IMG/VR virus record: IMGVR_UViG_3300028581_000105
Coordinates: 1 to 38,413 of that record
Source of the DNA: a virus
Strand: one strand, 5' to 3'
Length of the DNA: 38,413 nucleotides
Shown here in pieces: positions 9,202-37,452 of the stretch (the stretch's first letter is position 1; every line of letters starts with the position of its first letter). Position numbers and translations under genes: made by a program. The notes under the pieces were generated by a model, which saw only the letters and a list, made by a program, of their open reading frames with translations, did no database searches and was not told where the DNA came from.

Positions 9202-9209
9202 ATAAATAT
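9202..9209 (-). promoter_or_regulatory. Candidate late promoter motif (ATATTTAT)
   Basis: ATATTTATAA on the minus strand starts inside the stop codon of the upstream gene (TGATATTTAT) and lies 13 bases before the ATG at 9188. Confidence 0.4.
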
Positions 9210-10202: not shown

Positions 10203-10207
10203 TTAAA

Positions 10208-10250
10208 TTTTATTTCTTATATTTGTATTCACAAAAGATAAGAAATAAAA
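10208..10250 (+). promoter_or_regulatory. Promoter with long inverted repeat before the zinc-ribbon gene
   Basis: TATATTTG at 10218-10225 matches the Bacteroidota -7 box TAnnTTTG; no TTG is present at the -33 distance. A 13-bp inverted repeat (10208-10220 and 10238-10250) surrounds it and reaches the start codon. Nested inside is TTTGT (10222-10226) with ACAAA (10231-10235). This looks like an operator or a 5' leader hairpin. Function is inferred. Confidence 0.55.
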
Positions 10251-10706
10251 ATGGAAAAAGAAACCCACAAACTTCAAAACAGTAATCTTAGGAAATTTAT
10301 TTTTGCGGGTAACGCAACATTCACAGTTCTTAATGAGGTTACAGGTAATCGTTTTACGTTTAAAATTAGAAACGCCAATTACAAAAAACCTGAACCTAAA
10401 GTAGCTTCCGATATTTTTTACGTTTCGGTTTTAACTGGGCAAGATAATAATTCTGCTTATACCTTTTTAGGTACCTTCTTTGGTGGTAAAAATGAGGCTT
10501 ACAGACATTCTGTTAAAAGTAAAATAACTCTTGACGCTAATTCCAATAAGGTTGCTAGTTGGTTTTTTAATTCTTTTCTTAAAAATCCAAATGCTTATAC
10601 CACTATTAAGGTTTATCACTCAGGTAAATGTGGGAGATGTGGTAAAAAATTAACAACCCCCGAATCTGTTGAGTCTGGTTTAGGTCCTTATTGTGGAAAT
10701 AGGTAG
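10251..10706 (+). CDS. DUF6011-like zinc-ribbon protein
   Basis: The 151-residue product has a C-terminal segment CGRCGKKLTTPESVESG followed by LGPYCG. This is the C-x2-C...C signature of the small zinc ribbon known to me as DUF6011, usually at the end of proteins of unknown role. The N-terminal 110 residues are beta-rich (FIFAGNATFTVLNEVTGNRFTFKI), with no recognised fold. It is one of few plus-strand genes and has its own promoter and a dyad symmetry. It ends four bases from the convergent hub gene stop. It probably belongs to the early or host-takeover class by promoter type. Confidence 0.85.
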   Translation: MEKETHKLQNSNLRKFIFAGNATFTVLNEVTGNRFTFKIRNANYKKPEPKVASDIFYVSVLTGQDNNSAYTFLGTFFGGKNEAYRHSVKSKITLDANSNKVASWFFNSFLKNPNAYTTIKVYHSGKCGRCGKKLTTPESVESGLGPYCGNR

Positions 10707-10710
10707 GTTA

Positions 10711-13700: not shown

Positions 13701-16700
13701 GGTCTGTTGAGGTATTTTGAGAACATCCTTCACATATTAATGGTTTTCTCCAGCCCCCATCGGTTTTTTTCCCCGTAAACTCTCGCCAACGCCAAAGTTG
13801 CGCACCTAAAGTTAATAACCAAGCTTTTGGTACTTTTGCTATACCACCAATTGTGTTAAAGGCTCTATGTGACCATATTAAACTTGGGCCATATTTTTCT
13901 GGTTCTGTATCACCATCCTCATCCACATAAAAAAGATCACCATCATCAGATATAATTCTTTGGACAAAAGGTGTTGGTTTTAGTGTATGAAGAAAAAGAT
14001 AAGCTAAATTTCTATTTTGGTGTTCTGTTGTGTAATTAGTGTTACTACCCGGTTTAACTTTTTTTCTAAACTCTATAACATTGTCTAACCACATTGGGGT
14101 TGTTATTAACGGTGAATAAATAAAATCCCTAAATACCGATATTGGATCCTTTTTTGTGTTATCGATTGAAATCCCAGAAAAAGTGTTTACGTTTTGATAT
14201 TTTACTAAGTTAACTCCGTGAACATAACCACCCTCAGCAGTGTCCCAAAATGTTAACATACCCATGTTAGAAACAATGCCACCACCTATTGAGTTTTCTG
14301 TTTGTGTTGTAACATCTGCCTTATTGGTCCACCAAGTATCTGCATCATCCGACCCATCAAAACACATTGCTAATGTCGTATACAATTGTGGTTTATCAAA
14401 AGAAACCAGTTGTTGATTTGGGTCAATAACGGAATAAGTTAAATCGGGGTTGTATTCTGTGGTTTTAAAATCAATATCTTTAACACTTTTTTCTAAAGCT
14501 TTTACATAGGTATCATTTAAAAAAGTTTTAAATTTCTCGTTAGTTAAATTAACTCCACGTACACTTGTAGTGTCTTCTTGTTTTATTATTTTTATTAAAT
14601 TACTTGATTCCATTTTAAACGGATTCGGGTGTATCCAAATGGGTTGGTCATCATCATTGTTCTTTATAGATATACCATTGGCTTTATCCGACATATAACT
14701 ATAATAGTTGTCATTAGTTTTAAAGCCGTGATTATCGTCCCCAACAACAGCTGTTTTTTTAATATCTATCCCTGTAAGTTCCTTTAACCCTGTAAGTTCG
14801 TTTTTAACCGCGTTAACAAAACTAGTTGCGTCATTATAACTACTCAATAACCCTTGTAATTGTTTTTCATTAGTGGTAGAATTTAATAAATTCCAAGAAT
14901 CTAATTGTGCGATATTTTCAATAAAGACATCCTTTTTTAATGGGTTCCAATCACCTTTACCGATACCCTTGTTTGGTCCTTGTCCTATTAATAAAGCATC
15001 TGTGGTCAACCTAATTGGTTGAAAAGTGCTGTGGTCTAAAGCGATAAATAAACGTTCACCAATAACTTTAAATATTTCTTGGTTACCAACCAAGTCTAAA
15101 TATTTATTAGGTGTGTTTGGAAACCAAGCAGGTGATTCTAAAGGGTTTATTGGTGCGAAATTATCATAACCAGGTTTACCTTCATAATTAACGTTTAATA
15201 GGTCAATTTCTTTTTGTAATTGTAAGAAAGCCTTTAAAAAATCCTCCACAAAAATAACTTCTGGCCAGTTTTGAAATAAAACATTATTACCAGGGAATTT
15301 TTGTTCCTCGCTTGGTGGGTTAGTATTTTTTACACTATAAGTTGGCCAAGAATAAACAGTTTTGTCCGCAGTAGTATTAGTTTCAACATTTGTATCACCT
15401 GGTGGGTTAGTTTTGTGGTATGTTTCAGCTTGAATAGAAACTGTTTTTAAAACCTCCATAAAAGCCTCGGTGTTTGACAATAAGATTGTAAAAACATTTC
15501 TAATTGTCGGCTTGAAGTTTAGTTTTTCTTCAATAATCCTATCTATCTGTTCGTTAACTACTTTTTGTTTGTCAGTTATTTTAATATTTAAACCTTCAAT
15601 TTCTGAATAAATGTCTTCCAAAATATAACCAAAATCAACAAAATATTGGTCAGGGTTAGAGTCGTAACTTTTAGAGGGTTTATACCCGTATGTAACTGAT
15701 GATCCCGCAGTTTGTGTATCACTCCAAAAATTTTGAGGTCCATACCAAGATTTACCAGTTATTTTTGAACTATTAAATATGTTATAAGTAGTTGTGTTTG
15801 AATCTTGAAACTGACTAGGGGGGTCACATAAACAACTTATTTTTTTAACATCTAATTGGTATGGGTAACTGTTACCTATTTTAGTGGATAGGATAGTTTT
15901 TATACTACTTAAAAAAGAACCACCAGTTGTGTTAAAAGCGTTCGCTAAACTGCCACCTGTACTTATTTCTGTTTCAACGGTTTTACGACCGGTTTCTGAG
16001 TTACCATAAATAATCGTTAATTTTCTTCCTTTAACCGAGGGGTGTATGGAGTTTGTAAGACCAAGGGTTCCTTTTGTGTTAGTTTTTACAACTTCTTCTA
16101 CGGTACTTCTATACTCATTATATAATTTAGCCACCTCCTTTAGTTGAACCAACTCTTGATACTCTGGTGAGTCAATAATTTTTTGTTTATCTACCTTTTC
16201 AAATGAATTTAATCCTTTTAGTAGTTGTAAAACGGTGATACACCCGTTTGGCCCACTGCAAAAATAAGTCTCATCATAATCATTTCCCGCAACATTTTCT
16301 TTATAAAATTTATTTGTTTTGTCATAGATCTTTTCTAATGTATCTTTAAATCCATAATTGTTTGGTAATAAAGAAGCTGCCATAACATACCCCATGAATA
16401 TATCTGACAGAAAGGCAAAAGAATACCCAATAAATTCTGCTCTACATTCCATATTACCAGTTTCAGAATTAAATTTAGTATTAAATTTAACCAAGTTTAA
16501 GTAATATGTTGCGGCCTTACCATAATAACCTTTAACCGTTAACTCAAAAACTGGATACGGTAATTGAAAGAAAAAACCATATGGTGAACAAGAACCTTGT
16601 TCAAAGAGTGTCGCTCCACGAACATCTACAAAATCAATTGTGACGGTGGGTGACACCTGACTTTTAATATTAATATCAATACTTGTAATCCCAAAGCCTT

Positions 16701-17085
16701 CGTAATCAGTCCCTGTTTCCCCAAAAGCACTTTTAAACCCACCAATCTCAGTCCAATCAGTTGTTAAATTAGGTTTGGTTTTAAATAAAATATCCCCATC
16801 AACAGTCGTACTTTTATTTTGTGGTGAAGATAGACTAACCGTGTTACCGTTTAAATTAGAAATTGAATATTTTTTATCGGGGTATTGAGTTAATAAACTT
16901 TTTGGTCTTGTGTTAGCTTTTAAATTAACGTAAATAAATAAATCCTCGTGTGGTACAATTTCTTGTCCAGGATTTGGGTCTATTAAAGTAACTTTTGTTG
17001 TTGGTTTCGAAGTACTACCTCTTTCTGTTGTAGTACCTTCTGTTTTTAAAATTGTTGGGCTGTATGTTGTTGGTGTGTATGCCAT
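10711..17085 (-). CDS. Very large baseplate/hub protein with C-terminal lysozyme-like domain
   Basis: This is a 2124-residue virion protein. The N-terminal 250 residues (ITSIDINIKSQVSPTVTIDF, YPVFELTVKGYYGKAATYY) look like a repeated tail-type beta fold. Near 1740-1800 a gp27-like hub pattern occurs (MTYFDLQGVPMFSGAYLITE, VSHSVKPNN, FKGVRQPRT). Near 1870-2020 an EGGYYHPVHW motif followed by SGETMFGEDRAAGQ suggests a muramidase/transglycosylase domain, with the Glu of EGGY as the likely catalytic acid. It would puncture and locally digest peptidoglycan during infection, as T4 gp5/gp27 do. The start overlaps the previous stop (TAATG). The structural assignment is good; the enzyme domain is inferred from motifs. 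Confidence 0.8.
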   Translation of the reverse strand: MAYTPTTYSPTILKTEGTTTERGSTSKPTTKVTLIDPNPGQEIVPHEDLFIYVNLKANTRPKSLLTQYPDKKYSISNLNGNTVSLSSPQNKSTTVDGDILFKTKPNLTTDWTEIGGFKSAFGETGTDYEGFGITSIDINIKSQVSPTVTIDFVDVRGATLFEQGSCSPYGFFFQLPYPVFELTVKGYYGKAATYYLNLVKFNTKFNSETGNMECRAEFIGYSFAFLSDIFMGYVMAASLLPNNYGFKDTLEKIYDKTNKFYKENVAGNDYDETYFCSGPNGCITVLQLLKGLNSFEKVDKQKIIDSPEYQELVQLKEVAKLYNEYRSTVEEVVKTNTKGTLGLTNSIHPSVKGRKLTIIYGNSETGRKTVETEISTGGSLANAFNTTGGSFLSSIKTILSTKIGNSYPYQLDVKKISCLCDPPSQFQDSNTTTYNIFNSSKITGKSWYGPQNFWSDTQTAGSSVTYGYKPSKSYDSNPDQYFVDFGYILEDIYSEIEGLNIKITDKQKVVNEQIDRIIEEKLNFKPTIRNVFTILLSNTEAFMEVLKTVSIQAETYHKTNPPGDTNVETNTTADKTVYSWPTYSVKNTNPPSEEQKFPGNNVLFQNWPEVIFVEDFLKAFLQLQKEIDLLNVNYEGKPGYDNFAPINPLESPAWFPNTPNKYLDLVGNQEIFKVIGERLFIALDHSTFQPIRLTTDALLIGQGPNKGIGKGDWNPLKKDVFIENIAQLDSWNLLNSTTNEKQLQGLLSSYNDATSFVNAVKNELTGLKELTGIDIKKTAVVGDDNHGFKTNDNYYSYMSDKANGISIKNNDDDQPIWIHPNPFKMESSNLIKIIKQEDTTSVRGVNLTNEKFKTFLNDTYVKALEKSVKDIDFKTTEYNPDLTYSVIDPNQQLVSFDKPQLYTTLAMCFDGSDDADTWWTNKADVTTQTENSIGGGIVSNMGMLTFWDTAEGGYVHGVNLVKYQNVNTFSGISIDNTKKDPISVFRDFIYSPLITTPMWLDNVIEFRKKVKPGSNTNYTTEHQNRNLAYLFLHTLKPTPFVQRIISDDGDLFYVDEDGDTEPEKYGPSLIWSHRAFNTIGGIAKVPKAWLLTLGAQLWRWREFTGKKTDGGWRKPLICEGCSQNTSTDRPVGNDPLIQPGYDMSGIKDRYYLEDNSPIKKLRNDVKSYLLGIYGGVPGVNYNNNTIPTVFGYNYQNRIGPNAAINGGEDYLAFYYFNLYKDQVGEISNRLGPVPNEGANIKYSWPQVYIAPHHIPYVLPDKFNDGRNGEGADFIFITDDYIGRQDYQTIMPNKMDGVSYNEKNNSDELGHTHRSKYEDGNLGMIFQYIPDGIKDEIVQIFEDWTSEGGEWEKLLQIVDPVNFTPKGSLLDSYSYRKGEKSPAEAIKRSSNPENNVIITLNPNETLLRLLTDQYWILNSTPKIWYGYQNETNNNPTKSNQFYEDGFVVSEKQFNTYLTSFFNTYRLNLPTRLQELKDEKKDKSGNGSPIDDEDLKLSLYRSFKSLSEKWIQRTSNNDLFFNVGGTDGKTCKNGASKKSTLASHFTYVNRVWGDIGDKSYIDITKLNELKDNKKISLYQIITDILSDNEYLFFALPSYINLTGQGMKEEDLKDMFRPILDISDSSCGPLFVSMYVGGVSRKLALQIGETNCKVDNDEVKEVLKNVNDDGFSLTDIDQPTDMASGNFTAFKVLYGIQNQNHFKNIQLDQSEFTETAESLNVIDKLAQNQGSDRTTKGQNLNSAYLTRSYTCTIESMGNMMIQPMTYFDLQGVPMFSGAYLITEVSHSVKPNNVSTTFKGVRQPRTIVPLVTSASIAMNLTFDENATGTGTGTSLRSINRNTQLFNLDWKDQIKTNITPKITSTSTKEDTIKVIQTGVEGGYYHPVHWYNPKLGNQGTQKGYGLLDKSGETMFGEDRAAGQTENSSKGVELWALVDKSSGYGNYGTLSTTLPTAGATSTKNYSRTHTTTETKNNGKVIYEGWDLKILQSLLNVNGWTYGYVPPGADGEKLKKLSAGIAVDATDELLKTYFKNSPKLKGIIENDQRLYFSFVRSRYNGPKFFQYHSINLIEVYDKNPNFTNDDLLLANLDYKWLYAQGLNRNSSEIIGRDVLKIAEIVGVKPPNKNVVV
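10713..10740 (+). terminator. Possible terminator for the zinc-ribbon gene, inside the convergent hub gene end
   Basis: AAACCACC (10713-10720) pairs with GGTGGTTT (10733-10740) across a 12-base loop, with only a short T-run. It lies immediately after the zinc-ribbon stop and covers the last codons of the opposite gene. Confidence 0.4.
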
Positions 17086-17411
17086 TAACTGTTAATATTG
17101 TATAAAACATTGTAATTTTTTACTTCTTGTTGGTAACTTTGTAAAGCACTTATCAAAGGAAAGGGTACTCTAATAGTACTGCCTTCTGGAATATCAAACT
17201 CTAAACCACCATATTCTGGGTTTGCTTGCATGATTAACCAACCGTAATACGGTGAACCATAATAGGTATTTGAAACAATGTCAAGCCTGGTTCTACTAGT
17301 GTACCCAATAAAGATGTCACCGTCGGATATTGGTATTTTTATAAAAGGTAATACCTTAACTTGATTATCGTTTCTAAACTGCTGATATCTGTCGTAATAT
17401 TGTTTTGCCAT
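17085..17411 (-). CDS. 53: LysM-type baseplate wedge protein (gp53-like)
   Basis: The 108-residue protein contains TRLDIVSNTYYGSPYYGWLI, then ANPEYGGLEFDIPEGSTIRVPFP, the LysM-like pattern of small baseplate proteins such as T4 gp53 and Mu-type protein X. These join the tail tube base to the wedges. It lies in the baseplate operon between the 1361-residue protein (15 bases upstream) and the hub (TAATG overlap), which fits. Confidence 0.8.
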   Translation of the reverse strand: MAKQYYDRYQQFRNDNQVKVLPFIKIPISDGDIFIGYTSRTRLDIVSNTYYGSPYYGWLIMQANPEYGGLEFDIPEGSTIRVPFPLISALQSYQQEVKNYNVLYNINS

Positions 17412-17426
17412 AATTTTTTATTTTAA

Positions 17427-20400
17427 TTATATTTTTAAAGCAGCGTTTTTAGAGTCTGTATTGTTACTAAAGTACACATACACACTGTACTGTTCACCAC
17501 TAGTGTTAATAGGTGAAGGTGGAAATATACTTATATTAGTAATTAAAGAAGAAGCTAGAATTGTTTCACCTACCGGAATGTTTTTAATACTATTACTATC
17601 ATCGTTAAGGGCTAATATATTTACGTTAGTTATGGTATAGTCATTATTTAAAGACGAACTATCTGACGATTCTTTTCTGCCAAAAACTAATTGAATTTCG
17701 GGACCGACTTTTTCGGCTGACATAGTTAAACGTTCCATATCTGTACTAACATTTGCTGTCGGTGGGTTGCCACTAGAAGATACTGGTGGTGGTGCTGGTT
17801 GGGAGTTACTAATCTGTGTTGTTGCGGTACTAGAAATGGGTGTGTTAGTACCTACCGATGTTGTATTAACACTTTCTAAGTTTTGTTTAACCGAAACGTC
17901 TTGTACAACACCTAAACTAGAATTTATGTTTCCGTAAGCAGTTTCAGCGTCTTCAGGTGACATAAATGCCCCATATATAAATCTTTGTTTTTGGTTTATA
18001 ATTTCTTCTGTATACTTCCACGGTTGGTAAACTCCAGTGTTAGCATAAAAATTATATGAAACCGCGTTTTGTAATTGTTTTATTGGGCCTCCTAATGAAG
18101 AACCACCAATAAATTTAAAACTCATAGTAACCTTTGCTAACATAGGCTGTACACCAATACCTTCTGGATTTAAATCCCATTGTAATGGATCATAACTTAT
18201 ATTCACAGAATCAACCACAATTTTGGTGTTATAAAAATCACCAATTCTTAATACACAAATAGGTGGTCTACCAAAAACCATGTTTTGTGGTTTTGTTGAA
18301 TCTAATATTTGTGGTCCTTGTCTAGTACACTGGTTTAAAAAAGTTAACCTACTATTAAGACCTTCAGGTGTCATTGAGTGGAAAGCAGGATGGAATCCTT
18401 TTATTTTTTCCTGTAAAGAAGTATAAACAAAGGGTTGATCTCTTTTTATTGCTTCAAAGTATTCACATTCGGTAATAAATTCTTTTGCGAACTGGTTTAC
18501 CAAATCGTTTCTTTCATTTTGAAACTTATCTGTTGCAACTTTTTTATTGTCCTTTGTAATACCTTGTAATAAATTATTTTGTATTGCCTTGTTTTCTTCT
18601 AAAGTTATTATTGCATATCTAGCTTCTTTTGAAGCTCTAGAATTTGGATCGTTAGTACCTAAACTATTACACGGATTACCGTAAGCAACATTTCCTGTTA
18701 AATTTTGTGAACCAGGATTTGCCTCACCTTTAACATCCCATCTATCAGGATTATTTACCAAATCTTTCTCTGTTGGGTAAGAAGGGTAGTTTGGGTTTCC
18801 ATACAATGGTGGTGGGTCGGTTTCGAGAGCTATTAATTTAGTATACAAATACTCTTTAGTATTAGTAGCTCTAGCGGTAGCTAATTCTTGGTTATAAGTA
18901 GAGGTTGGGCTATCTACCGATGTGTAAGCTACAATTTTTATTTTATAATTTTTCCCATCTTCGGTTAATAAAAAAGAAACTAACTGGTCTATTTTATCCT
19001 GTGATACCGTTTCTAAATTTAAATAACTGTAAGTGTTTGCAGAAGCAGGACCACAAGGGTATAAAGAAGCGTTGTTAGGCCATTCACCTTGGTTAACCCC
19101 ATCCAACGAAATGTTTGGATAAACAACTTCGTACAAATCCAAATCAACAACTCTACCCACATTTGTACTAACGTTTCTAGAGTTTTCAAAATATATTTTA
19201 ATATTATTAAACGGTGGTTGTGTTACATCACAAGGTTTTGTTTGTAAAGTGCCATCCTCGTTAAAGGTTATCTCTGTTTTTGACACTTCTTTATCTACTA
19301 AACTTCTTAATGTATCGATATCACAACCAGCGAAAAAAGAATGATACGGTTCGTCACTAATTATTTCACTGCTAAATCTATCCCTAATTTGATTTAAAAC
19401 AGCAGGATGGTCAACAATAATAGTAAAATCTAAGGTACCACTTCTTTCAGAGTTATTATAAGTATATATGTTTTCTCCACGACCAACAAAAGAAGTACTT
19501 TCCCAGTTAACACTATTGTTTTCACTGAAGCTTATGTCGTAAGGTGGAAACCACATAATCCTACCACTATTAGGTCCCTTTTCACATTCTGGTAGTTCAA
19601 CGTACTGTGGAGCATCTTTCCAGGCTAAGTTTTCGATTGAAAACATATACGGTATTGCCGCACCCTGTGTCCCACTTTTTAATTTTTTTAATATTTCCAG
19701 ATCTCCCTTATCGAAAGATATCTTCGGTGTCCCTTTCGGGTCGTCACCCCAATTCATGGTCATATTTTTATTACTTTCCTGTCCTCGCCACCAATTACCA
19801 CTCTTCCTTGTTAAATTATTCCAAGTATGGAATTTTTGACGTGAAGACCAAGAACGACAATAGTAGTCACCACCACTGTCAGTTTCAAAATTATAGTTTC
19901 TTGCTGTGTTACCTCTTGACGGTCTTTCAGGAACAAGATCAGAACTTTCCACTCCTGATTGGTGAAATCCAGTTTCATTTATGGCCCCAGTTTTTCCTAT
20001 GGAATCAAAGTACCCGATATAACCTGCCGCATCACCTAATTTAGATTTGTTAACTAAATTTTGCGTGTACTGTAAAATACCTTTAGTAAATTTATTATCA
20101 CCTTTCCTAATTCGCCAATCAAACTTTTCGTTTACAGTCCCATAGTTGGCAGACCTTGCCATTATTTCCGATGGTGTACCAAGATATGTGGTGTCTGGTT
20201 TCTCGTTGTCATTTACTGTATACTCATTTATAGCCAATTCTTGACCTAATCCAATAGCCGAAGAAACGGACTTATTAACAATACCTATTGGTTCGTATTT
20301 ACCATAAAAACCACCATACTTATCTCCTGTCACACCTTCTAAAGGTGTCTCAGGAAGTGGTGTTAAATAAGTACCTTCATTTTTAACTTCATAATCTTCG

Positions 20401-28123: not shown

Positions 28124-29401
28124 CTAAAGACTTGCTTTATCCCAGTTAAGTTTCTTAAAAGATGTCGTTTTATATGTTGTTAACACATTTCTTTTATGGG
28201 TTATCTCCAGCATATACACGCATAAAGCCATGGCTTCTTCATAACTTAAACCATAATCTTCGTTTAATTTTAACCAAATTTGTTGATGATCTATCCATAA
28301 AAGAGGAACTTTTCCACCTTTGTTAATGTCATCCGCCATTAAAGTTTCACCCATTTCATTCTTATAAAGCATCCATCCTGAGTGTTTTTTTGATTCTACC
28401 ATCCTTAAACTGGACATTAAATCATATAAAAATTTGTACCTTTCTTCTTTTTGTTTCTTGGTGGGTACATAGATTCTTTCTAAACCTGAGTCTCCGTATG
28501 TTTTTGGGTTTATACAATAAAAACCTGTAGCATCCCCGTTAATTTTTTCTAAAATAGAATATACCGTAGATTTAAATTCAGGCCTACCATTTCCATACAT
28601 GCTATTACTAGGTACCAAAACAAAATCATCAGGATTTTTTTCATTTATATATGGTTTAATATTTAAAACAGCTAAAGGATTATTGATATTTTTATCATTT
28701 TTATTAATTAAATAAGAAATTAAAGAACCTTCTTTAACTTCATGGATTAAATATTTAACATTTTCACCCTCTTCTTTTCTATCTTCAATTTCAGATTTTA
28801 AGTTTTTTATTTTTTTTAAAATATTAACATAATTTGGGTCTTCTTTTTGTAAAGAACTTAATTTATTATTTAAGGTGTTCATTTGGTTAAATAACACCTC
28901 AACTCTTTTAGAACTAGTATGACCCATTGTCATACAGTTAGTCCAATTTCTATCGGTATCAGAACCCGCAATATCATAAGGATGACGAGAAATAACAACC
29001 ATTAAATTATCGATATCAGAGGTTAAAGCTTTTCTTGCTTCATCGGAAACAAACTTTTTCATTAAATCATCAGCTTTTAATCTAGTTAAAACTTTACCGA
29101 TCGAGGTTGTGTTTTTAGACTCACCAAATTTAGCAATACCTTTAATATAATCCAAAACTTGATATCCATTTTGAGTTAAAAAATCAGTAACTTCTTTTTC
29201 AACATTAGAAACAGGGCCAGATTTTTCTTCTTTTCCTAGTGGTATGTAAATACGATAATAATTTTTATCATGTTCATATTCATCACCTAATTTTTTAAAA
29301 ATATCGGTATATCTTTCACGATTAAAAGCTTTAACATATTTTCTAAATTGGGATGGTTTTAAGGCTTCTTGTAATAATATTTTATGGATTATGTTTCTCA
29401 T
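28124..29401 (-). CDS. Putative internal/injected protein with leader, WTNCM domain and shared C-terminal domain
   Basis: The 425-residue product has three parts. Residues 1-13 (MRNIIHKILLQEA) are a capsid-targeting-like leader with LQE. Residues about 130-300 hold SRHPYDIAGSDTDRNWTNCM, LISYLINKNDKNINNPLAVL and a YG.....F..TV block, a pattern I recall from many unannotated phage proteins. Residues 324-409 (FLYDLMSSLRMVES to THKRNVLTT) are homologous to residues 34-119 of the product of 30532-30903. No catalytic function is recognised. A late motif (29418-29425) lies 16 bases before the ATG. The head-packaging idea rests on the leader only. Confidence 0.75.
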   Translation of the reverse strand: MRNIIHKILLQEALKPSQFRKYVKAFNRERYTDIFKKLGDEYEHDKNYYRIYIPLGKEEKSGPVSNVEKEVTDFLTQNGYQVLDYIKGIAKFGESKNTTSIGKVLTRLKADDLMKKFVSDEARKALTSDIDNLMVVISRHPYDIAGSDTDRNWTNCMTMGHTSSKRVEVLFNQMNTLNNKLSSLQKEDPNYVNILKKIKNLKSEIEDRKEEGENVKYLIHEVKEGSLISYLINKNDKNINNPLAVLNIKPYINEKNPDDFVLVPSNSMYGNGRPEFKSTVYSILEKINGDATGFYCINPKTYGDSGLERIYVPTKKQKEERYKFLYDLMSSLRMVESKKHSGWMLYKNEMGETLMADDINKGGKVPLLWIDHQQIWLKLNEDYGLSYEEAMALCVYMLEITHKRNVLTTYKTTSFKKLNWDKASL

Positions 29402-29495: not shown

Positions 29496-30347
29496 ATGAA
29501 AACAACAGAAGAAAAACTTAACCGATTAAAAGAAGTTCTTTCAATACCAACATACTCACAAGATGAAAAGTTAATGATTGAATACCTCCAAAAAGTTTTA
29601 ACCGAAAAAGGTTATGGCCATTACACAGATGTACACGGTAATGTTTACGTTACTAAAGGTCAAACAGAAAGTTACCCTTGTTTTATTGCCCACACCGATA
29701 CCGTTCACAAAGTTAATTTAAATTTAACCGTTGTTGAAAGTTACCATAAGGGAGAAACCATTCTTAAAGGTGTTGATAGTTCTAACGGAAAAGCAACTGG
29801 TATTGGTGGCGATGATAAATGTGGTATTTTCTTGGCACTTGAAATGTTAGACACATTACCAAATGTTAAAGCAGCTTTCTTTGTATCTGAAGAAATTGGG
29901 TGTAGAGGTAGTATGTACGCTGACCCTGAGTTTTTTAAAAACGTTGGTTACGCCATTCAGTATGATTCGCCAGAGGGTGATTCAATGAGTTTGACTTTAA
30001 TGGGTAGATATCTTTTTAATCAAAAATCGGAGTTTGCTAACAAAGTAACTGGGTTAATTAAAGAACACGGTATTAATGATTGGGCATACCATCCTTATAC
30101 CGACGCATGGCAAATCGTTGAACAGTTTGAAATTGCTTGTTTGAATCTTGCGGCAGGATATTACCAATATCATACAGCAAATGAATATGTTTCAATCAAA
30201 GATGTTGAAAACGGATTCCAATTGGGATTAAAACTGGTTGAAACTTTGGGTGAGAAAAAATATGGTAACAAAAAAGAAAGCAAATATCAAATTTTAAATG
30301 AAGGTTATAACCAGAGAAAAAAGTTAGATTACGGATATAACGATTAA
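29496..30347 (+). CDS. M20-type zinc metallopeptidase (compact, no lid domain)
   Basis: This is a di-zinc aminopeptidase/carboxypeptidase-type hydrolase. All usual ligands are visible in the 283-residue product: AHTDTV (H66, D68), GIGGDDKCG (D106), the general base and ligand in VSEEIG (E132, E133), YDSPEGDS (D157) and YHTANEYVS (H226). Cellular M20 enzymes have about 370-420 residues, with an inserted dimerisation domain; this one lacks that insertion and keeps only the catalytic domain. It is rare in phages and may release amino acids or process a peptide signal. Both roles are inference. It is a single-gene unit, with its own promoter and strong terminator. Confidence 0.88.
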   Translation: MKTTEEKLNRLKEVLSIPTYSQDEKLMIEYLQKVLTEKGYGHYTDVHGNVYVTKGQTESYPCFIAHTDTVHKVNLNLTVVESYHKGETILKGVDSSNGKATGIGGDDKCGIFLALEMLDTLPNVKAAFFVSEEIGCRGSMYADPEFFKNVGYAIQYDSPEGDSMSLTLMGRYLFNQKSEFANKVTGLIKEHGINDWAYHPYTDAWQIVEQFEIACLNLAAGYYQYHTANEYVSIKDVENGFQLGLKLVETLGEKKYGNKKESKYQILNEGYNQRKKLDYGYND

Positions 30348-30373
30348 AAAAAGGGACTCTAGGTCCCTTTTTT
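30347..30373 (+). terminator. Rho-independent terminator of the metallopeptidase gene
   Basis: AAAAAAGGGAC (30347-30357) and GTCCCTTTTTT (30363-30373) form an 11-bp stem with a 5-base loop and a T6 tail, starting at the stop codon. Confidence 0.92.
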
Positions 30374-30418
30374 GTATTATATAAAATACGGTAATTTAAT
30401 TTTTAAGATAAAGCCATT

Positions 30419-30616
30419 AACACCCTTCGTTTATGGGTCATTTCCAGCATACGGTACTCGCTGGATTGCCGATTATCGGATGTCAATACCTTTCGTTTAT
30501 GTGTCATTTCCAGCGTTTATTCACTCGCCAATTATAAATCATCAGTTGTCAATACCTTTCGTTTATGGGTCATCTCCAACATACGTAAGCATAAAGCCTT
30601 AATATCTTCCGTTTTT
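30419..30616. repeat. Three degenerate 66-bp tandem repeats at the 3' end of gene 30532-30903
   Basis: Units start at 30419, 30485 and 30551, each with a well-conserved first part (AATACCTTTCGTTTATGGGT, then CATTTCCAGC). The unit at 30551 codes on the minus strand for the end of gene 30532-30903 (RMLEMTHKRKVLTTDDL). The other two stay in the same reading frame (TLEMTHKRKVLTSDN and RMLEMTHKRRVLMALS) but lie beyond two TAA stops. They look like decayed duplications of a 22-codon segment. Confidence 0.85.
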
Positions 30617-30903
30617 AAACCATAACCTCTTAATTTTACCCAGATTCTGTCATAATCAACATATAAACTAGGGTTTTTGGTACCGGTATTGATATCATCT
30701 GCCATTAAATTTTCCCCATTTTCATTCTTGTACACCATCCAATTTTTCGATTTTTCTGATTCTGATTCTACCATCTTTAAACTGGACATTAGATCATATA
30801 AAAATTCTTCAGCAGGGGTAAATTGTTTAACATTCTGTTGAACCCATTCAAAATTTTCAGGGTCAAATTCTTCTTTTAATATTTTTTTAATTAAGTTTTT
30901 CAT
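30532..30903 (-). CDS. Small leader-bearing protein, paralogue of the C-terminal domain of 28124-29401
   Basis: The 123-residue product starts MKNLIKKILKEEFDPENF, a basic amphipathic leader with LKE. Residues 34-119 (FLYDLMSSLKMVES, NWMVYKNENGENLMADDI, MLEMTHKRKVLTT) align closely with residues 324-409 of the 425-residue protein at 28124. It thus looks like a version lacking the middle domain. It is the last gene of an operon beginning at 32928, and its start overlaps the preceding stop (ATGA). Function unknown. The 3' end lies in a 66-bp tandem repeat. Confidence 0.75.
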   Translation of the reverse strand: MKNLIKKILKEEFDPENFEWVQQNVKQFTPAEEFLYDLMSSLKMVESESEKSKNWMVYKNENGENLMADDINTGTKNPSLYVDYDRIWVKLRGYGLKTEDIKALCLRMLEMTHKRKVLTTDDL

Positions 30904-31271
30904 TTTAAAGTTAAAAGATATTTTAACTTATTTATTTCTCCAAGCATTTCATCACGAATATTTAACAAATCGGTATCTTTTTGTGGGTCTAAAGAATTAC
31001 TTAAAGACATTAAAAATTCTAAATTTTGATTTAAAAATTCGTTTAATCCCAAGTCATTGGTATTTTTTAAAACAATGGTTCCTTCACCTGAAGCAAATTC
31101 AACACGGCCATATTTACCCATGTAAACTTCAATAAAGCCGTCAATAAGGCCGTTTAATGCATCATAAATACCGCCGTAAGCGTTATGTCTTGCATATGAT
31201 TTTGTTTGCCAATGTAAAACTCTAAATTGTTCTTGTAGAGTTATAAAGTTAATCATTAATTGTTCTTTCAT
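30900..31271 (-). CDS. Dps/ferritin-like protein (DUF5856-type)
   Basis: The 123-residue, all-helical protein contains LHWQTKSYARHNAYGGIYDA followed by LNGLIDGFIEVYMGKYGR. H20, H29, D44 and E48 match the ferroxidase ligand order of Dps (H..H...D...E). The H-to-D spacing of 15 and D-to-E spacing of 4 are as in E. coli Dps; the two His are three residues closer. This suggests an iron-oxidising or cage-forming protein protecting DNA, or a structural use of the fold. Overlaps TAATG (upstream) and ATGA (downstream) show operon coupling with the caspase-like peptidase and the small paralogue. No leader is seen. Confidence 0.75.
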   Translation of the reverse strand: MKEQLMINFITLQEQFRVLHWQTKSYARHNAYGGIYDALNGLIDGFIEVYMGKYGRVEFASGEGTIVLKNTNDLGLNEFLNQNLEFLMSLSNSLDPQKDTDLLNIRDEMLGEINKLKYLLTLK

Positions 31272-32368
31272 TATCTGTAGTATATTCTTTGTTTGTTATA
31301 ATCTATTATTTGGTTATTATCACCGTTATAGATGTTTTTAAAAACATCAACAGAATTCGGTGATTCTATAGGTAGTGCTGCTTTTAAGGCTTTAGTGAAT
31401 AAAGTATTTGAATATTGTAATTGTACATCATCACAACCATGTACTTGACAATAATTTGCTTCACATAATTCTGATATTACCATACCAGTATAAAAACCAT
31501 GTAAATCATGTGGTACAACAAATTTATCTGCATTACACCAAACAGCCACAATCGGTTTTGTTTTTAAAATATTTAAAAAGTCATAACCAATGGAGTAATT
31601 ATTATATTTAACATATTGACCATTATCGTTTAACTCAACACCATTAACACCACCAATCATACTTAACATTAAACCACCTGGTGACCCATGACCCATCATT
31701 ATAATTCTTCGGTGATTTTTCACGGTTTCCTTTAAATTATACATATCTTCTTTAGTTGTTAAAACTGTTGCGTTTAAACCGGCATAAGATGCTTTTAAAA
31801 AGTCAGTAGTTCTATCATCTGGGTGTATGATTAATGTGCCACCTTTTTTGACGTTTCTAGTTAACATCTCTTCTAACTCTTCTGGAGTATAAGATTTAGT
31901 GTCTATTGTGTTATCATAAGTGCCGTAACCACCATAAGTGCCGTAACCACCGTAACCACTAGAAAAATCTTTTTTGTTTTTAATATGAAAACATAATTCT
32001 TCAACCGCATACAAAGTGTATACATTAATATTTCTTGGTGACTTTAAAATTTTATAATATATCTCATCTGGAACATCTCTTAACGATTCTAAGACATCAC
32101 GAACAACAAATCTGTTAATATGTTTAAGATTTTTATGGAAACATTCGGCAGCTGAAACTACGGCTTCTAAGCTTTCAACATCAAACCCACCTAATTCATT
32201 AGCTTCAATAATCATCCATTCCAAATATCCATTATTACCAGAAGGATCTGCCATGGATAAATCTCTTATGGCAACTTCTGGGACTTCATATTTAGAGTAT
32301 TTTTTTATAATATTCTCTAAGTGACTCTCATTTAATATGGTTTCTAAAATAATATGTTTAAGATTCAT
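31271..32368 (-). CDS. Leader-bearing caspase-like (clan CD) cysteine peptidase
   Basis: The 365-residue product has several parts. Residues 1-14 (MNLKHIILETILNE) are a leader with LNE. Residues 30-130 are a helical domain (ADPSGNNGYLEWMIIEA; AAECFHKNLKHINRF). Residues 137-151 are a Gly/Tyr linker (GYGGYGTYGGYGTY). Residues 175-305 are a caspase-type core: strand TLIIHPDD, then IIMMGHGSPGGLM with H227, then PIVAVWCNADKF with C278 and GFYTGMVISELCEA. The His-Gly and Cys after a hydrophobic strand, 51 residues apart, are the clan CD dyad arrangement (48 in caspase-1). AGGAGG and GGAGG lie just upstream. The TAATG start overlaps the coiled-coil gene. Substrate unknown. Confidence 0.75.
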   Translation of the reverse strand: MNLKHIILETILNESHLENIIKKYSKYEVPEVAIRDLSMADPSGNNGYLEWMIIEANELGGFDVESLEAVVSAAECFHKNLKHINRFVVRDVLESLRDVPDEIYYKILKSPRNINVYTLYAVEELCFHIKNKKDFSSGYGGYGTYGGYGTYDNTIDTKSYTPEELEEMLTRNVKKGGTLIIHPDDRTTDFLKASYAGLNATVLTTKEDMYNLKETVKNHRRIIMMGHGSPGGLMLSMIGGVNGVELNDNGQYVKYNNYSIGYDFLNILKTKPIVAVWCNADKFVVPHDLHGFYTGMVISELCEANYCQVHGCDDVQLQYSNTLFTKALKAALPIESPNSVDVFKNIYNGDNNQIIDYNKQRIYYR

Positions 32369-32928
32369 TATTCCTCCTTTCCTCCTGTGAGTAACTTACT
32401 TAATTTTTCTTTTAAATCAGCTATTTCTTCTTCCATTTCTTCAACCTCAGTATCTCTATCACTTAATTTTTCTTTTAGGTCTGCCACTTCTTCTTCTAGA
32501 TCTTCAACCTCACCATCTCTGGAATCACGACCTTCATCATAACCTTCTTGCCTCGCATCGTTAACTCGTTCTCTATGGTCTTCTTCCCAAATATAATCAT
32601 CACAACAACCATCACAAGAACAATCATTGCTAGAACCATAATCACGACCCAGATCCCAAGCTACATTAAATTGGCTATATAATTCATCAGCAATATCGTT
32701 TAAAATATCTAATTTTGTAATACCGTTATCGACCAACAATTCAAAAGTATCATCCATGTCAACACTCCATTCACTTTCAATTCTACGCCAACTTTTTTTA
32801 AACTGTTTTTCACCTCTACTGACATCCAAATCATTTACCCAAGAAAATTCGTCACCAACATCTTCCTTTATGATTTTAACAACCAATTTTTGGATGTCGT
32901 TTTCCGTTAATTTAATAATTTTTTTCAT
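32368..32928 (-). CDS. Leader-bearing coiled-coil protein with a cysteine cluster
   Basis: The 186-residue product starts MKKIIKLTENDIQKLVVKII, then KED. The form K(L)TE.D...LV..I..E recurs at the N-terminus of many Bacteroidota phage proteins in my memory. C103, C105, C108 and C109 (CSCDGCC) could bind a metal. Residues 140-180 are a coiled coil made of a 21-residue unit repeated twice (EVEDLEEEVADLKEKLS at 140, EVEEMEEEIADLKEKLS at 161). No family recognised. It is the first gene of the operon 32928-30532, preceded by the palindromic late motif at 32933-32950. Confidence 0.78.
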   Translation of the reverse strand: MKKIIKLTENDIQKLVVKIIKEDVGDEFSWVNDLDVSRGEKQFKKSWRRIESEWSVDMDDTFELLVDNGITKLDILNDIADELYSQFNVAWDLGRDYGSSNDCSCDGCCDDYIWEEDHRERVNDARQEGYDEGRDSRDGEVEDLEEEVADLKEKLSDRDTEVEEMEEEIADLKEKLSKLLTGGKEE

Positions 32929-32932
32929 TAAA

Positions 32933-32950
32933 ATATTTATTAATAAATAT
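32933..32950. promoter_or_regulatory. Palindromic copy of the candidate late promoter motif
   Basis: ATATTTAT-TA-ATAAATAT is a perfect 18-bp palindrome. Read on the minus strand, the copy at 32950-32943 lies 14 bases before the ATG at 32928. Confidence 0.45.
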
Positions 32951-32972
32951 GCATAATTTTTAAAAAATTATT

Positions 32973-33011
32973 TTGCCAATCATATATTTAAAAGTATATT
33001 TGTATCACAAA
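32973..33011 (+). promoter_or_regulatory. Bacteroidota-type promoter of the small RNA
   Basis: TTG (32973-32975), 19 bases, then TATATTTG (32995-33002), an exact consensus match. TTTGT (32999-33003) and ACAAA (33007-33011) form a short dyad over the -7 box and the predicted start near 33008. Confidence 0.65.
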
Positions 33012-33156
33012 ATTAAAACACAGGGTTGAATCGGTTAATCCCTTAAGCTTAATCGACGTAATGTGACGAAACAACATGGTGAAAATCCACAATCTTTAAC
33101 AGATATTAAAGATGAAAAATAAAAAACCCATCGGTCAGAATACTGGTGGGTTTTTT
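33008..33156 (+). ncRNA. Stand-alone structured small RNA candidate (about 150 nt)
   Basis: A consensus promoter and a strong terminator frame a segment with no credible ORF. Hairpins: TCGGTTAA (33031-33038) with TTAATCGA (33049-33056), including one G-U pair; ATCTTTAA (33092-33099) with TTAAAGAT (33106-33113), loop CAGATA; and the terminator. A middle part, GACGAAACAACATGGTGAAA, looks single-stranded. CCC in the first loop could pair with GGG at 33023-33025 as a pseudoknot. It lies on the plus strand between two minus-strand genes, overlapping the terminal codon of 33155-33553. It may be a regulatory RNA or a mimic of a host RNA; no known family is recognised. Confidence 0.6.
33121..33156 (+). 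terminator. Rho-independent terminator of the small RNA (possibly bidirectional)
   Basis: AAAAAACCCA (33121-33130) pairs with TGGGTTTTTT (33147-33156). Inside, CGGT pairs with ACTG, giving a nearly continuous stem with loop CAGAAT. It also immediately follows the stop of the minus-strand gene 33155-33553 and has a T-run on that strand too. Confidence 0.85.
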
Positions 33157-33553
33157 AATTGCCAAACAATTGCAATTGATCACGACCAATTTCAAAATCT
33201 TTTTTATTCATTACGGTAACAATATTTAATATCCATTGATAAGGGTCAACCATTTCGGGCTCAATAACAATATTTAAATAAGGGTATTTGGTGTCGGAAA
33301 TAATAAATCTAACCTTATCCTTAATCTCATCGACAGCAATTTTAAAAGCAATATCATCCAAAACCTTTTTAACCAAATTAAGAATGTCGACATCATGAAT
33401 AACAACACCTTTTTCTGCAACGTGACGCCATTGTCTTTTTTTGGAATGTTCACTTGGATCGTGTCGTAAATTAAAATTAATAAAAATATTAGCTTTTAAT
33501 TGTGCAATTCTTCTTTCCAGAATTAATTGTTCTTTAATAAGTTTTTTAATCAT
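33155..33553 (-). CDS. Leader-bearing protein of unknown function, weakly DUF4258-like
   Basis: The 132-residue product starts MIKKLIKEQLILERRIAQLK, a basic amphipathic leader with IKE and ILE. The rest has H-x3-R-x2-R (EHSKKRQWRHVAEKG), a helical middle, then FIISDTKYPYLNIVIEPEMV and WILNIVTVMNKKDF. The order H..R..R, helix and beta strands ending TV is reminiscent of DUF4258 and related BECR-fold nucleases, but the match is weak. A copy of the late motif ends only four bases before the ATG, so either the transcript is leaderless or a later start is used. Confidence 0.7.
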   Translation of the reverse strand: MIKKLIKEQLILERRIAQLKANIFINFNLRHDPSEHSKKRQWRHVAEKGVVIHDVDILNLVKKVLDDIAFKIAVDEIKDKVRFIISDTKYPYLNIVIEPEMVDPYQWILNIVTVMNKKDFEIGRDQLQLFGN

Positions 33554-33557
33554 AATA

Positions 33558-33565
33558 ATAAATAT
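33558..33565 (-). promoter_or_regulatory. Candidate late promoter motif before 33155-33553
   Basis: ATATTTATTA on the minus strand lies four bases before the ATG at 33553 and directly after the stop of the endonuclease gene. Confidence 0.35.
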
Positions 33566-33566
33566 T

Positions 33567-35150
33567 CTAATAATTGGAAAATTGCCATCTTATATGACCA
33601 CAATCATATATTCGATATATTTTACGATTAAACATTATTTCTTTTTCGGTTTGTTTAACATCAAAGCCTTGTTTAATTAACTCAGATTTTTTGAAATTTA
33701 ACCTATGGTATCTAATACCGTTATGGATATACCAATAATTTGGTTTTGTTGACCCACAATTTTCAAACCCTAATTTTGTGTAAACACCACCGTTAAACCA
33801 ACGGTTATCTGAGTATGATATAATTTTTTTAACCCTAAAATTTTTGGTAAAAAAACTAAATAATCTGGAGGCCGCTCCCACCACAATCGTATTTTTCTTA
33901 TTACAAAATCTAATTAGTTCCCAATCGATATTATTACCAACACCATTTCTTTTTCCAAAAGTCATCAAAGAAACTAATTCGTCTTTATAGTACAATCCAA
34001 GTTTAACAGTAGAAGACACATTTCCCTGTATATGGTTTTCAGATAAAAAAAGTTTACTTTCATTAGGTGTGACTTTTTTTATTTCACAGTTTCTGGAATA
34101 TATTTTAGTTGAAATTAGTTTAAGTTTATTTTTTAATATGGATAAAACAATCTCTTGTTTAAACAACCATTCATCTTCGAAAATATGGATTAAATCAATA
34201 TTAGATTTTTTACATAAATTAGTTTTTACTAAATGGTAATCATTTGCCACATATAATTCATTATGCCAATAAATTCCGTCAAACTCAATAGCTGTTTTTA
34301 TTGATGGGATATAAATATCAATTTCAAGAGAAGAATTTGGTATTCTATTGTGTCTTTCATATTCGATACCCCAATCATCTAATATAGAACATAGTGAATC
34401 TTCATGCGACGACGAAAAACTCATGCCAATTGGGTTACATTTTGTGCATAGAACGTAATTATGTTTTTTCCTTTCTCGTAATAAATTTTGTGTTATAGAA
34501 TACACATCGTCACATTTATTACATTTAATATCGAGCATAGATAAATCGGTGGTAATTTTTTGGATTTCTAACTCTGGGTATCGTTCAATAACCTTATTGC
34601 TTAATAAATTTTTATAACTATCCGATTTAGCAAAGTTATCAACCCCATATTTTATATTACAAGTTTCTTTATACTTTTCAAAATTATTATACATTTTACT
34701 CCCATATAATTTTAATTTTGTTTGTAACATTTTTTCAGTATTGTTATAGTTTTTATCACCATAACACTCAATTTTGGTTTTATCACGTTTTTTAATGAAG
34801 TCTTTGTGTTGGGTGTAAAACTCCACATTATGGTTTTTTAAGTTAGATTCTTTGATTTTATTAATCAATAACCCACTGTTATTTGCACATTCTAAAGAAC
34901 AAAACTGATTGTATCCACGGTCAAATCTTTCCGAAAATTTAACTTCAGTATTACAAGACTGACATTTTGGTTTTTGTGTTAGATTATTGAAATAAAACCA
35001 TATTTTTTCTTTAAAAGAAGAATCTGGTTTTAAATACTGTTGACAATACGATATTATATCAACGTATTCTTGAGGGTAATTTTTTGCAAACCACGCCTCT
35101 TTGGTTTTGTGACCAGATTTATTATCTGTTGTAAAAAAAGAAAAGTCCAT
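33567..35150 (-). CDS. Homing-type endonuclease with zinc fingers and Vsr-like nuclease core (copy 1)
   Basis: The 527-residue protein is probably a mobile site-specific endonuclease. From the N-terminus: CQSCNTEV...FCSLECAN zinc finger; repeats with a KYG core (KIECYGDKNY, KLKLYGSKMY, NIKYGVDNF) typical of phage DNA-binding repeats; a second zinc knuckle (CNKCDDVY...CTKCNPIG); nuclease core EIDIYIPSIKTAIEFDGIYW, followed by IDLIHIFEDEW; and a C-terminal domain (NHIQGNVSSTVKLGLYYKDE, SYSDNRWFNGGVYTKLGF) resembling a GNAT-like fold. I chose ATG at 35150 (MDFSFFTTDNKSGH) because it aligns with the start of the paralogue at 35809; the frame is open to 35195. Confidence 0.85.
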   Translation of the reverse strand: MDFSFFTTDNKSGHKTKEAWFAKNYPQEYVDIISYCQQYLKPDSSFKEKIWFYFNNLTQKPKCQSCNTEVKFSERFDRGYNQFCSLECANNSGLLINKIKESNLKNHNVEFYTQHKDFIKKRDKTKIECYGDKNYNNTEKMLQTKLKLYGSKMYNNFEKYKETCNIKYGVDNFAKSDSYKNLLSNKVIERYPELEIQKITTDLSMLDIKCNKCDDVYSITQNLLRERKKHNYVLCTKCNPIGMSFSSSHEDSLCSILDDWGIEYERHNRIPNSSLEIDIYIPSIKTAIEFDGIYWHNELYVANDYHLVKTNLCKKSNIDLIHIFEDEWLFKQEIVLSILKNKLKLISTKIYSRNCEIKKVTPNESKLFLSENHIQGNVSSTVKLGLYYKDELVSLMTFGKRNGVGNNIDWELIRFCNKKNTIVVGAASRLFSFFTKNFRVKKIISYSDNRWFNGGVYTKLGFENCGSTKPNYWYIHNGIRYHRLNFKKSELIKQGFDVKQTEKEIMFNRKIYRIYDCGHIRWQFSNY

Positions 35151-35164
35151 ACATTTATTTATTA

Positions 35165-35172
35165 ATAAATAT
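35165..35172 (-). promoter_or_regulatory. Candidate late promoter motif before endonuclease copy 1
   Basis: ATATTTATTA on the minus strand lies about 14 bases before the ATG at 35150. A further ATATTTAT at 35217-35224 is in the same gap after the tail tube gene. Confidence 0.35.
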
Positions 35173-35264
35173 ACGGACTTTTCGTTGGTTGTCAAGTATG
35201 TACTTATTTAAGAAAAATAAATATATACAGAGAAAACAAAGTTTGTATTTGATAGAGAAATAAA

Positions 35265-35808: not shown

Positions 35809-37452
35809 ATGATAAACGAATATTTTTTATTTTTTATGGATAATAAATCTGGTTGGAAAACCAACGAAAAAAAATTATCCAAAAAAGAACCAAAAATTTA
35901 TGAAGAGGTTAAAATTTTTATTGAAAAAAATTCATTAAACTATTTACCTTTTCAACAACAAGTTTGGCACTTTATTAATAAATATATCGAAATACCAAAA
36001 TGTGCAGAATGTAATAAAAATTTAAATTTCAAAAGAAGTTTAAAAGAAGGGTATGGGAAGTATTGTTCTTTAATTTGTACCAATAAAAATAAAGATCATA
36101 TTCAAAATGTAAAAAACACTAATAATAAAAAATACGGCGGTAACGCACCAATAAATTCTCAGTCTGTTAAAAACAAAATAGAAAAAACTAATTTACAAAA
36201 ATATGGTGTTGAGAACACTTATAATAGAATCGATTTAGTTGAAAAAGGTTTTTTACAAAAATACGGTGTTAATCATGTTTCCAAAGTTGAAGGTGTTACC
36301 GAAAGGAAAAAACTAACCAATATCGAGAAATACGGAAAATCTACAATTTTATCAACCTCAGAGGTCTTGGGTAAAACGCATGATACTAGAAGAAAATATT
36401 TTATCGAAAAATATGATAAATTTGATTTTATAACATACACAGGTGACACCTTAAATATTATTTGCCAGGTATGTAATAAAAATTATGATATTCACCGTAA
36501 TAGTTTTAGATATCGTGTATTAGCTAATGTTAATCCTTGTACATTGTGTAACCCAATAGGTGAATCGACTTCTATCCAGGAAAAAGAATTACAAAAATTA
36601 GTAGCAGAAATAACTAACGGTAATTGTTTGCTTAACGATAGAAGTTTAATCTCGCCAAAAGAGTTAGATATATTTATCCCAGATAAAAAACTGGCAATAG
36701 AATTCAATGGGGTTTATTGGCATAATGAATTTTTTGTTGAGAAAGAGTACCATTTAAAAAAGTATTTAAATTGTAAATCTAAAAATGTTGACTTAATACA
36801 AATATTCCAAGATGAGTGGGAGGTTAAAAAAGATATTATAACCTCTTTAATAAAAAATAGGCTGGGGATTAACGGTAAAAATGTAATATACGCCAGAAAA
36901 TGTGAAATAAAAGTGGTAGGTAATAAAGAGCATAATGATTTTTTAAATAAAAACCATATCCAAGGAAAGGTTAACTCTTCTGTTAAGTTAGGTTTATACT
37001 ATAACGATGAATTAGTATCTTTGATGACGTTTGGCAGGCTTAGAAAATCTTTAGGATCTAAACATGTTGAAGGTGAATGGGAGTTAATAAGATTCTGTAA
37101 TAAATTAAATTACAATGTTTTAGGCGGGGCTTCTAGGTTATTTAAATCTTTTATAAAAACGTATGACCCTAAAAAAATATTATCTTTTTCTGATAACAGA
37201 CTTTTTAACGGTAATATGTATAAAGTATTGGGGTTTGAGTATGAGGGGTATTCGAAACCGTCTTATTTTTATGTTATAAACGGAATTAGATACCATAGAT
37301 ATAATTTTAGAAAAGATGTTTTAGTTGCTGAAGGGTATGATAAAGATAAAACTGAACATCAAATAATGCAAGAAAGGGGTATCCCTAGAATCTACGATTG
37401 TGGTAATAAAAAATGGGTCTGGAAAACCCAAACCCATTTTAATGATGTTTAA
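35809..37452 (+). CDS. Homing-type endonuclease with zinc fingers and Vsr-like nuclease core (copy 2)
   Basis: The 547-residue paralogue of 33567-35150 has the same domain order: zinc finger CAECNKNL...YCSLICTN; KYG repeats (NNKKYGGNAP, NLQKYGVENTYN, FLQKYGVNHVS, NIEKYGKST); second zinc knuckle CQVCNKNY...CTLCNPIG; nuclease core ELDIFIPDKKLAIEFNGVYW, with VDLIQIFQDEW; C-terminal domain NKNHIQGKVNSSVKLGLYYN and SFSDNRLFNGNMYKVLGFEY. It is oriented opposite to copy 1, with the tail tube gene between. The last 15 codons contain a hairpin that serves as a terminator for the convergent gene. No clear promoter is seen. Confidence 0.87.
   Translation: MINEYFLFFMDNKSGWKTNEKKLSKKEPKIYEEVKIFIEKNSLNYLPFQQQVWHFINKYIEIPKCAECNKNLNFKRSLKEGYGKYCSLICTNKNKDHIQNVKNTNNKKYGGNAPINSQSVKNKIEKTNLQKYGVENTYNRIDLVEKGFLQKYGVNHVSKVEGVTERKKLTNIEKYGKSTILSTSEVLGKTHDTRRKYFIEKYDKFDFITYTGDTLNIICQVCNKNYDIHRNSFRYRVLANVNPCTLCNPIGESTSIQEKELQKLVAEITNGNCLLNDRSLISPKELDIFIPDKKLAIEFNGVYWHNEFFVEKEYHLKKYLNCKSKNVDLIQIFQDEWEVKKDIITSLIKNRLGINGKNVIYARKCEIKVVGNKEHNDFLNKNHIQGKVNSSVKLGLYYNDELVSLMTFGRLRKSLGSKHVEGEWELIRFCNKLNYNVLGGASRLFKSFIKTYDPKKILSFSDNRLFNGNMYKVLGFEYEGYSKPSYFYVINGIRYHRYNFRKDVLVAEGYDKDKTEHQIMQERGIPRIYDCGNKKWVWKTQTHFNDV
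37410..37440 (-). terminator. Terminator of 37460-38413 embedded in the endonuclease 3' end
   Basis: On the minus strand AAAATGGGT (37440-37432) pairs with ACCCATTTT (37418-37410), with a T6 tract. The hairpin codes on the plus strand for the last residues of the endonuclease (KWVWKTQTHF region). Confidence 0.65.

Follow-up and report, generated by a model that had tools for sequence, protein, structure and literature searches.

A gene at positions 31271..32368 (minus strand) of the viral DNA analyzed here, a stretch of 38,413 bases referred to as the window, encodes a 365-residue protein in which a leader and an N-terminal module precede a peptidase domain of a new family, predicted to have the caspase fold. 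The best explanation of this gene, which we consider about evenly poised between right and wrong, is that it specifies a cysteine protease that is packaged in the virion, injected and directed against host proteins. The window belongs to a T4-like tailed phage, with genes for a UvsX-like recombinase, a DnaB-like helicase, and baseplate and tail-tube proteins. A protein identical to the focal one was found in two other virus contigs, each of about 20 kb.

Translation from the ATG start begins with the capsid-targeting-type leader (residues 1–14, MNLKHIILETILNE; 32327..32368), for which cleavage by an S77 protease is predicted after E14, at an L/I-x-E site. The leader opens an N-terminal module with the stretch DPSGNNGYLEW (residues 1–125; 31994..32368). 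An 18-bp tandem repeat (31915..31955) lies in the Gly/Tyr-rich linker joining this module to the caspase-fold peptidase domain (residues 173–365; 31274..31852). The domain holds an HPDD motif after strand 1 (residues 182–185; 31814..31825), the predicted catalytic residues H227 in GHG (31688..31690) and C278 in WCNAD (31535..31537), and E303 in ISELCEA (31460..31462), all on the minus strand. Residues 5–100 match a 931-residue protein adjoining the terminase-like gene of phage genome G001 (E 2.2e-9), and the N-terminal module is thus common to another phage protein. The 931-residue protein (15064-17859(-) of L071, which is from the G001 record) and a 579-residue protein (L053:6445-8184(+)) both carry the module DPSG(N/S)NKYL and share the conserved stretch YGxGTKWCT, and neither gave a confident Pfam match. 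Scanning with the N-terminal module returned nine loci, L085–L088 among them matching weakly; the L085 match was counted as chance, since a nearby ORF is methyltransferase-like by eye.

An earlier note on this DNA had proposed a His/Cys dyad formed by H227 in MMGHGSPGG and C278 in VAVWCNADKF, 51 residues apart, and both residues and their spacing were borne out in the ORF. The window protein was aligned with 53 relatives from Bacteroidota chromosomes, T4-like phages, and Lak and other huge phages. Loci L020, L026 and L045 were excluded (spurious start, frameshift, truncated start), as were L048, L049, L051, L065, L068 and L069, which are copies or near-copies. The other rows are 19–79% identical to the window protein, and the distance between His and Cys varies from 32 to 86 residues. 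Residues G226, H227, G228, L233, C278, A280, M296, E303 and N358 are invariant in all 54 rows, and W277 is replaced by F in two. With G226-H227-G228 and C278 unchanged throughout, conservation of the dyad is, as judged from the aligned sequences, beyond chance. The segment TLIIHPDD (residues 178–185), which the note had read as a strand of a Rossmann-like core, lies on strand 1 of the model and includes the conserved motif HPxD; of the 52 rows with a residue at these positions, 49 keep H182 and 50 keep D185. Compared with L050, the peptidase domain has a dN/dS of 0.116, and residues 1–172 have one of 0.35.

Structure prediction indicates that the peptidase domain very probably has the caspase fold. 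In the AlphaFold model of the full-length window protein (mean pLDDT 76), most of residues 175–365 score above 90 and the N-terminal half is weak; a 182-residue bacterial relative was modeled with a pLDDT of 95.9 and a pTM of 0.91, giving six main and two short strands. According to PMC4357240, the catalytic His of clan CD peptidases and caspases follows the third main strand and the Cys the fourth. In the window model, strand 219–225 is followed by H227 and strand 273–276 by C278, these being main strands 3 and 4, and the two residues occupy the same places in the bacterial model. Aligned with VIA-align, the bacterial model reached Z 10.5 with SAVED-CHAT (3.7 Å, 159 aligned residues), 9.1 with gingipain RgpB, 9.0 with DdvA, 8.8 with legumain, 8.6 with caspase-4 and 8.5 with Craspase. 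The window model also matched SAVED-CHAT (Z 9.4, 3.4 Å, 151 aligned residues), the next matches having Z 7.1 and lower and flavodoxins 6.2–6.4. Among the best 37 rows for the bacterial model, 34 carry one of the titles caspase, c-FLIP protease-like domain, legumain, gingipain, C11, CHAT/Craspase/Csx29, Raptor or mTORC1, and GPI transamidase, and the remaining rows are two of DdvA and one of GSU0716. The chain matched in the mTORC1 rows is presumably Raptor.

Foldseek gave a chain of a caspase-4 complex as the best match of the window model (E 1.2e-4) and E 3e-3 at best for the bacterial model, and by itself was weaker than VIA-align; a BFVD structure search gave no match below E 0.001. No single score carries the fold assignment, which comes from model, ranking and dyad layout all pointing the same way. 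Two features of clan CD, the caspase/haemoglobinase α/β fold and the placing of His and Cys after strands 3 and 4, are seen in the predicted models. The structural comparison with caspase and CHAT folds that the earlier note had called for thus returned clan CD peptidases as the best matches of both models, in keeping with its proposal of a clan CD dyad on a Rossmann-like core. As modeled, the protein is quite likely an active peptidase.

None of the Pfam, NCBIfam, PADLOC or PHROGs models matched the peptidase domain. With the window protein as query, the only Pfam match at E ≤ 1 was CutA1 (E 0.16, residues 15–52), with no C14 and no CHAT, and the single NCBIfam match (0.11) covered residues 153–193; C14 and CHAT are also absent from the 22 families listed for the 54 members. 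A sequence search of the PDB gave nothing below E 0.79. The best profile match in the PDB was FetB (E 0.29), located on the GHG motif; it was rejected, as fold searches give it no support. Profile–profile comparison by hhalign with 20 C14 and 20 CHAT regions from Bacteroidota gave non-significant values of 2.4% and 0.5%, respectively, and controls from seven other families gave 0.0–0.8%. The C14 profile match was set aside, its alignment leaving the dyads unpaired. Because no library model recognizes the domain and the profile comparison falls short of C14 and CHAT, it is a new family, with a caspase fold in the predicted structures. Distant kin were found in L077 and L078 (family profile E 5.5e-13 and 4.4e-10; hhalign 98%), which keep GHG and have SC in place of WC. 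In these two Bacteroidota genomes the distant caspase-fold relative, a conserved protein without a name and an HATPase_c protein are encoded side by side.

The window family is like SAVED-CHAT, the TPR-CHAT of Craspase and clan CD generally in its predicted fold and in the placing of His behind strand 3 and of Cys behind strand 4. In contrast to SAVED-CHAT and Craspase, it matches neither CHAT nor C14 significantly by sequence or by profile, the window protein has no recognized sensor domain, and the domain is short, at about 180 residues. The titles and abstract openings searched, a partial coverage and hence weak evidence of absence, name no phage-encoded or virion-packaged caspase-fold peptidase, and the word 'caspase' occurs 0 times in a survey of jumbo phages (PMC7824862).

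The focal gene lies in a run of four overlapping genes (32928-30532), as deduced from junction overlaps of one, one and 4 bases. One base is shared between its start and the stop of the upstream gene (TAATG), and likewise between its stop and the start of the next gene; the junction after that is the 4-base overlap. The upstream gene (32368..32928) has the leader MKKIIKLTENDIQKLVVKIIKE and a coiled-coil-like body, the downstream gene (30900..31271) is assigned to DUF5856 / phrog_858, and the second downstream gene (30532..30903) has the leader MKNLIKKILKE. Other leader-bearing genes are found at 33155..33553 (MIKKLIKEQLILE) and 28124..29401 (MRNIIHKILLQE), all of these being on the minus strand. 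The neighbors of the focal gene are tail genes, with no head cluster there. The T4 late promoter TATAAATA is at chance level, with 7 sites against an expected 7.87 in the window and 6 against an expected 4.71 in L071; terminator-like sites within 30300–33700 are likewise at chance level, and the window has no tRNA or Rfam matches. Two homing-endonuclease-like genes (phrog_3339; 33567-35195(-) and 35809-37452(+)) flank the tail tube gene, and a gene for an M42/M20-type metallopeptidase (29496-30347(+)) adjoins the cluster. A 66-bp tandem repeat of 2.5 copies (30422-30585) is intergenic and runs into the end of 30532-30903.

The leader, termed packaging-type in the earlier note, gained support by inference, from its L/I-x-E end, the S77 protease of a relative, and related leaders on head-cluster proteins and on the L053 peptidase. 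T4 gp21 cleaves after L/I-x-E (PMC9026906). Residues 1–14 of the focal protein end in I-L-N-E, of which L-N-E fits this rule at residue 14 as a bare sequence motif. The T4 CTS proteins IPI and Alt are ejected (PMC9026906, PMC3012670). An S77 prohead protease is encoded by G001 (E 7.8e-30), in which the homolog of the focal protein is 79% identical. The protease was found in one of six relatives' records, the other five being shorter and probably fragments, and all six being linear and possibly fragments; none was seen among the scanned genes of the window, itself a fragment record. The gene order in G001 is protease, a leader-bearing gene, a gene with a start near-identical to that of window gene 30532..30903, and a scaffold-like gene. 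Likewise, L091 has a protease homolog (by eye), leader-bearing genes, and then scaffold-like and major-capsid-like genes.

The leader pattern LTxxDIxxLVxxI(I/L)xE is present in the window gene upstream of the focal gene, in a G001 gene between the S77 and scaffold-like genes, and in the L053 peptidase itself, and had no match in the bacterial loci searched. The L052 peptidase begins MAVKETIKKFLKE. The leaders of L052, L053 and the focal protein differ, so the leader borne by the domain varies from one T4-like phage to another; an extra N-terminal leader is absent from many other viral members. A stricter rule (basic, hydrophobic), devised after looking at the data, is failed by all three of these leaders. 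Pass rates in these phages, whose sets overlap in ancestry, were 4/29 for window ORFs, 2/12 for L071 and 6/30 for L050/L052/L053, against 6/359 for bacterial loci and 3/144 for other viral loci. From this gene-level analysis, packaging of the focal protein in the virion is judged somewhat probable.

The arrangement resembles T4 IPI/IPII/IPIII and Alt in the short L/I-x-E leader on diverse proteins and in the S77 protease of a relative. It differs in that the cargo is a predicted caspase-fold domain with an extra module of about 100 residues common to another protein, and in that packaging is here a prediction. Phage polyvalent proteins, as described in PMC5512222, are similarly predicted to be injected multi-domain proteins able to hold peptidases, whereas here the peptidase is the sole recognized enzyme domain and delivery would be CTS-like; the word 'caspase' occurs 0 times in that text. 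A SprT-like metallopeptidase of G001 (L071:2276-2752(+)), starting MKAIIKKILRE, has the same leader type beside the scaffold-like gene and is possibly a second packaged protease. The head-gene cluster of L071 also includes a glutamine synthetase-like gene (5378-6517(-), by eye), and the portal-like (7412-11815(-)) and terminase-like (11879-15010(-)) genes of L071 have apparent intein-like interruptions (by eye).

Relatives were drawn from 40 loci in genome contigs, all titled Bacteroidota or subgroups, and from 22 loci in viral contigs. In the phage collection, tblastn with the Lak-B1 protein reached a coverage of 80% or more in 15 Lak phage records, and a pattern scan (P0003) of viral contigs found no relative. 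By profile search, 3 of 395 Bacteroidota genomes carry the family, as do 22 of the 201 from one Bacteroidota family, several being partial, so it is accessory and non-core. Bacteroidota are the center of the domain family in the sequences collected; the domain stands by itself in bacteria, whereas in T4-like phages it is joined to leaders that differ. A quick tree, in which several long branches make placement unsure, groups the window, L050, L052 and L053 as one clade (SH-aLRT 99) inside a group of mixed and mainly viral membership; 6 changes of the virus label are required on this tree, at least 3 of them forced by starred branches. MT837816.1 (L004), filed as phage, resembles a piece of Prevotella chromosome, its protein being that of L008 at 97%. 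L062, filed as viral, is probably bacterial, being near-identical to a Prevotella locus.

At least one of twelve counted gene clusters was found in 27 of the 40 bacterial loci and none in 13. ADP-ribosylglycohydrolase (ARG) was inside the fetched flanks of 8/40, phosphatases fell into clusters c1 (10 loci), c6 (8), c5 (7) and c9 (5), and a gp30.3-like protein was found in 9 and Nudix and vWA in 5 each (the last two by motif only). Flanks are short in many loci, and L039 and L045, in which clustering missed the focal ORF, were uncounted yet kept in the denominator. ARG matches number 24 across the roughly 36 Mb of twelve of these genomes, which were partly chosen for ARG; a 10-kb neighborhood would therefore contain one by chance in <1% of cases. 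ARG-centered systems have been predicted to be a host answer to phage ADP-ribosylation (PMC9503650), and part of the bacterial relatives share ARG, DSP/rhodanese-type phosphatase, Nudix and vWA nearby with such islands. Some bacterial relatives thus lie in islands resembling predicted anti-phage systems. The word 'caspase' occurs 0 times in the text of PMC9503650, and the scanned window genes include no ARG, no phosphatase and no such island.

We infer packaging, trimming, injection, activity and target as follows. The leader would draw the caspase-fold cysteine peptidase (H227/C278) into the prohead core during head assembly, and the phage S77 prohead protease would trim it off, probably after E14 (ILNE↓S). 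The trimmed protein would remain among the packaged DNA and be ejected with it into the cell, and early in infection the peptidase would cleave a host protein or a few of them. The most plausible targets would be components of host conflict or signaling systems, by extension from the bacterial islands to the phage protein. Injection and action on host proteins have, in our judgment, an even chance of being right. A role in maturation of internal proteins, suggested in the earlier note, is less likely because a dedicated S77 prohead protease is already encoded in a relative.

A rather unlikely alternative is a caspase-fold peptidase made late in infection and left unpackaged, serving virion maturation or host takeover, with the N-terminal module as a localization or assembly domain. 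Such a role would suit the position of the gene among tail genes and the many viral members that have no extra leader; the dedicated protease of the close relative and the related leaders that mark head-cluster genes argue against it. That the protein is no peptidase at all, being a flavodoxin-like or other Rossmann-type protein using its conserved His and Cys in other chemistry, is quite improbable. Flavodoxins do reach about Z 6–6.7, and searches recover no known peptidase family. Nevertheless, clan CD entries outrank them, flavodoxin-type rows starting at rank 38–39 for the bacterial model (Z 6.7, 6.6), and span the whole domain (residues 1–182, versus about 1–152 for flavodoxins), and the dyad layout fits clan CD.

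The remaining alternatives draw on the bacterial relatives. The phage protein might be a copied host conflict-island peptidase that works as a decoy or antagonist, binding the partners or substrates of the host enzyme with no need for cleavage of its own, since part of the relatives lie in predicted conflict islands; we give this little credence, as a pure decoy would require neither an invariant dyad nor the strong purifying selection on the domain. It is scarcely probable that the peptidase is a weapon protecting the infected cell from competing phages and other mobile elements. Distant relatives do stand beside HATPase_c and a third conserved protein, as a regulated effector might, but no such sensor or partner was recognized in the window. 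The packaged, injected protease is retained as the preferred reading. Its wider history can be put forward tentatively: T4-like phages of Bacteroidota may have captured a caspase-fold peptidase of a host conflict-island family, added a capsid-targeting leader more than once and delivered it with their DNA, so that infection would open with caspase-like cleavage of host immune or signaling proteins.

Caspases bring about cell death in animals, and caspase-fold enzymes are executors of bacterial anti-phage immunity. A phage-borne, probably virion-packaged caspase-fold enzyme would turn this tool of bacterial immunity round and, if injected, would amount to a novel type of opening move by a virus. 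C278A would offer a built-in catalytically dead control for finding what an injected protease cuts. Moreover, this small domain is also found in huge phages, Lak among them, and in islands of gut Bacteroidota, and this would provide a second, genetically accessible route to the substrate.
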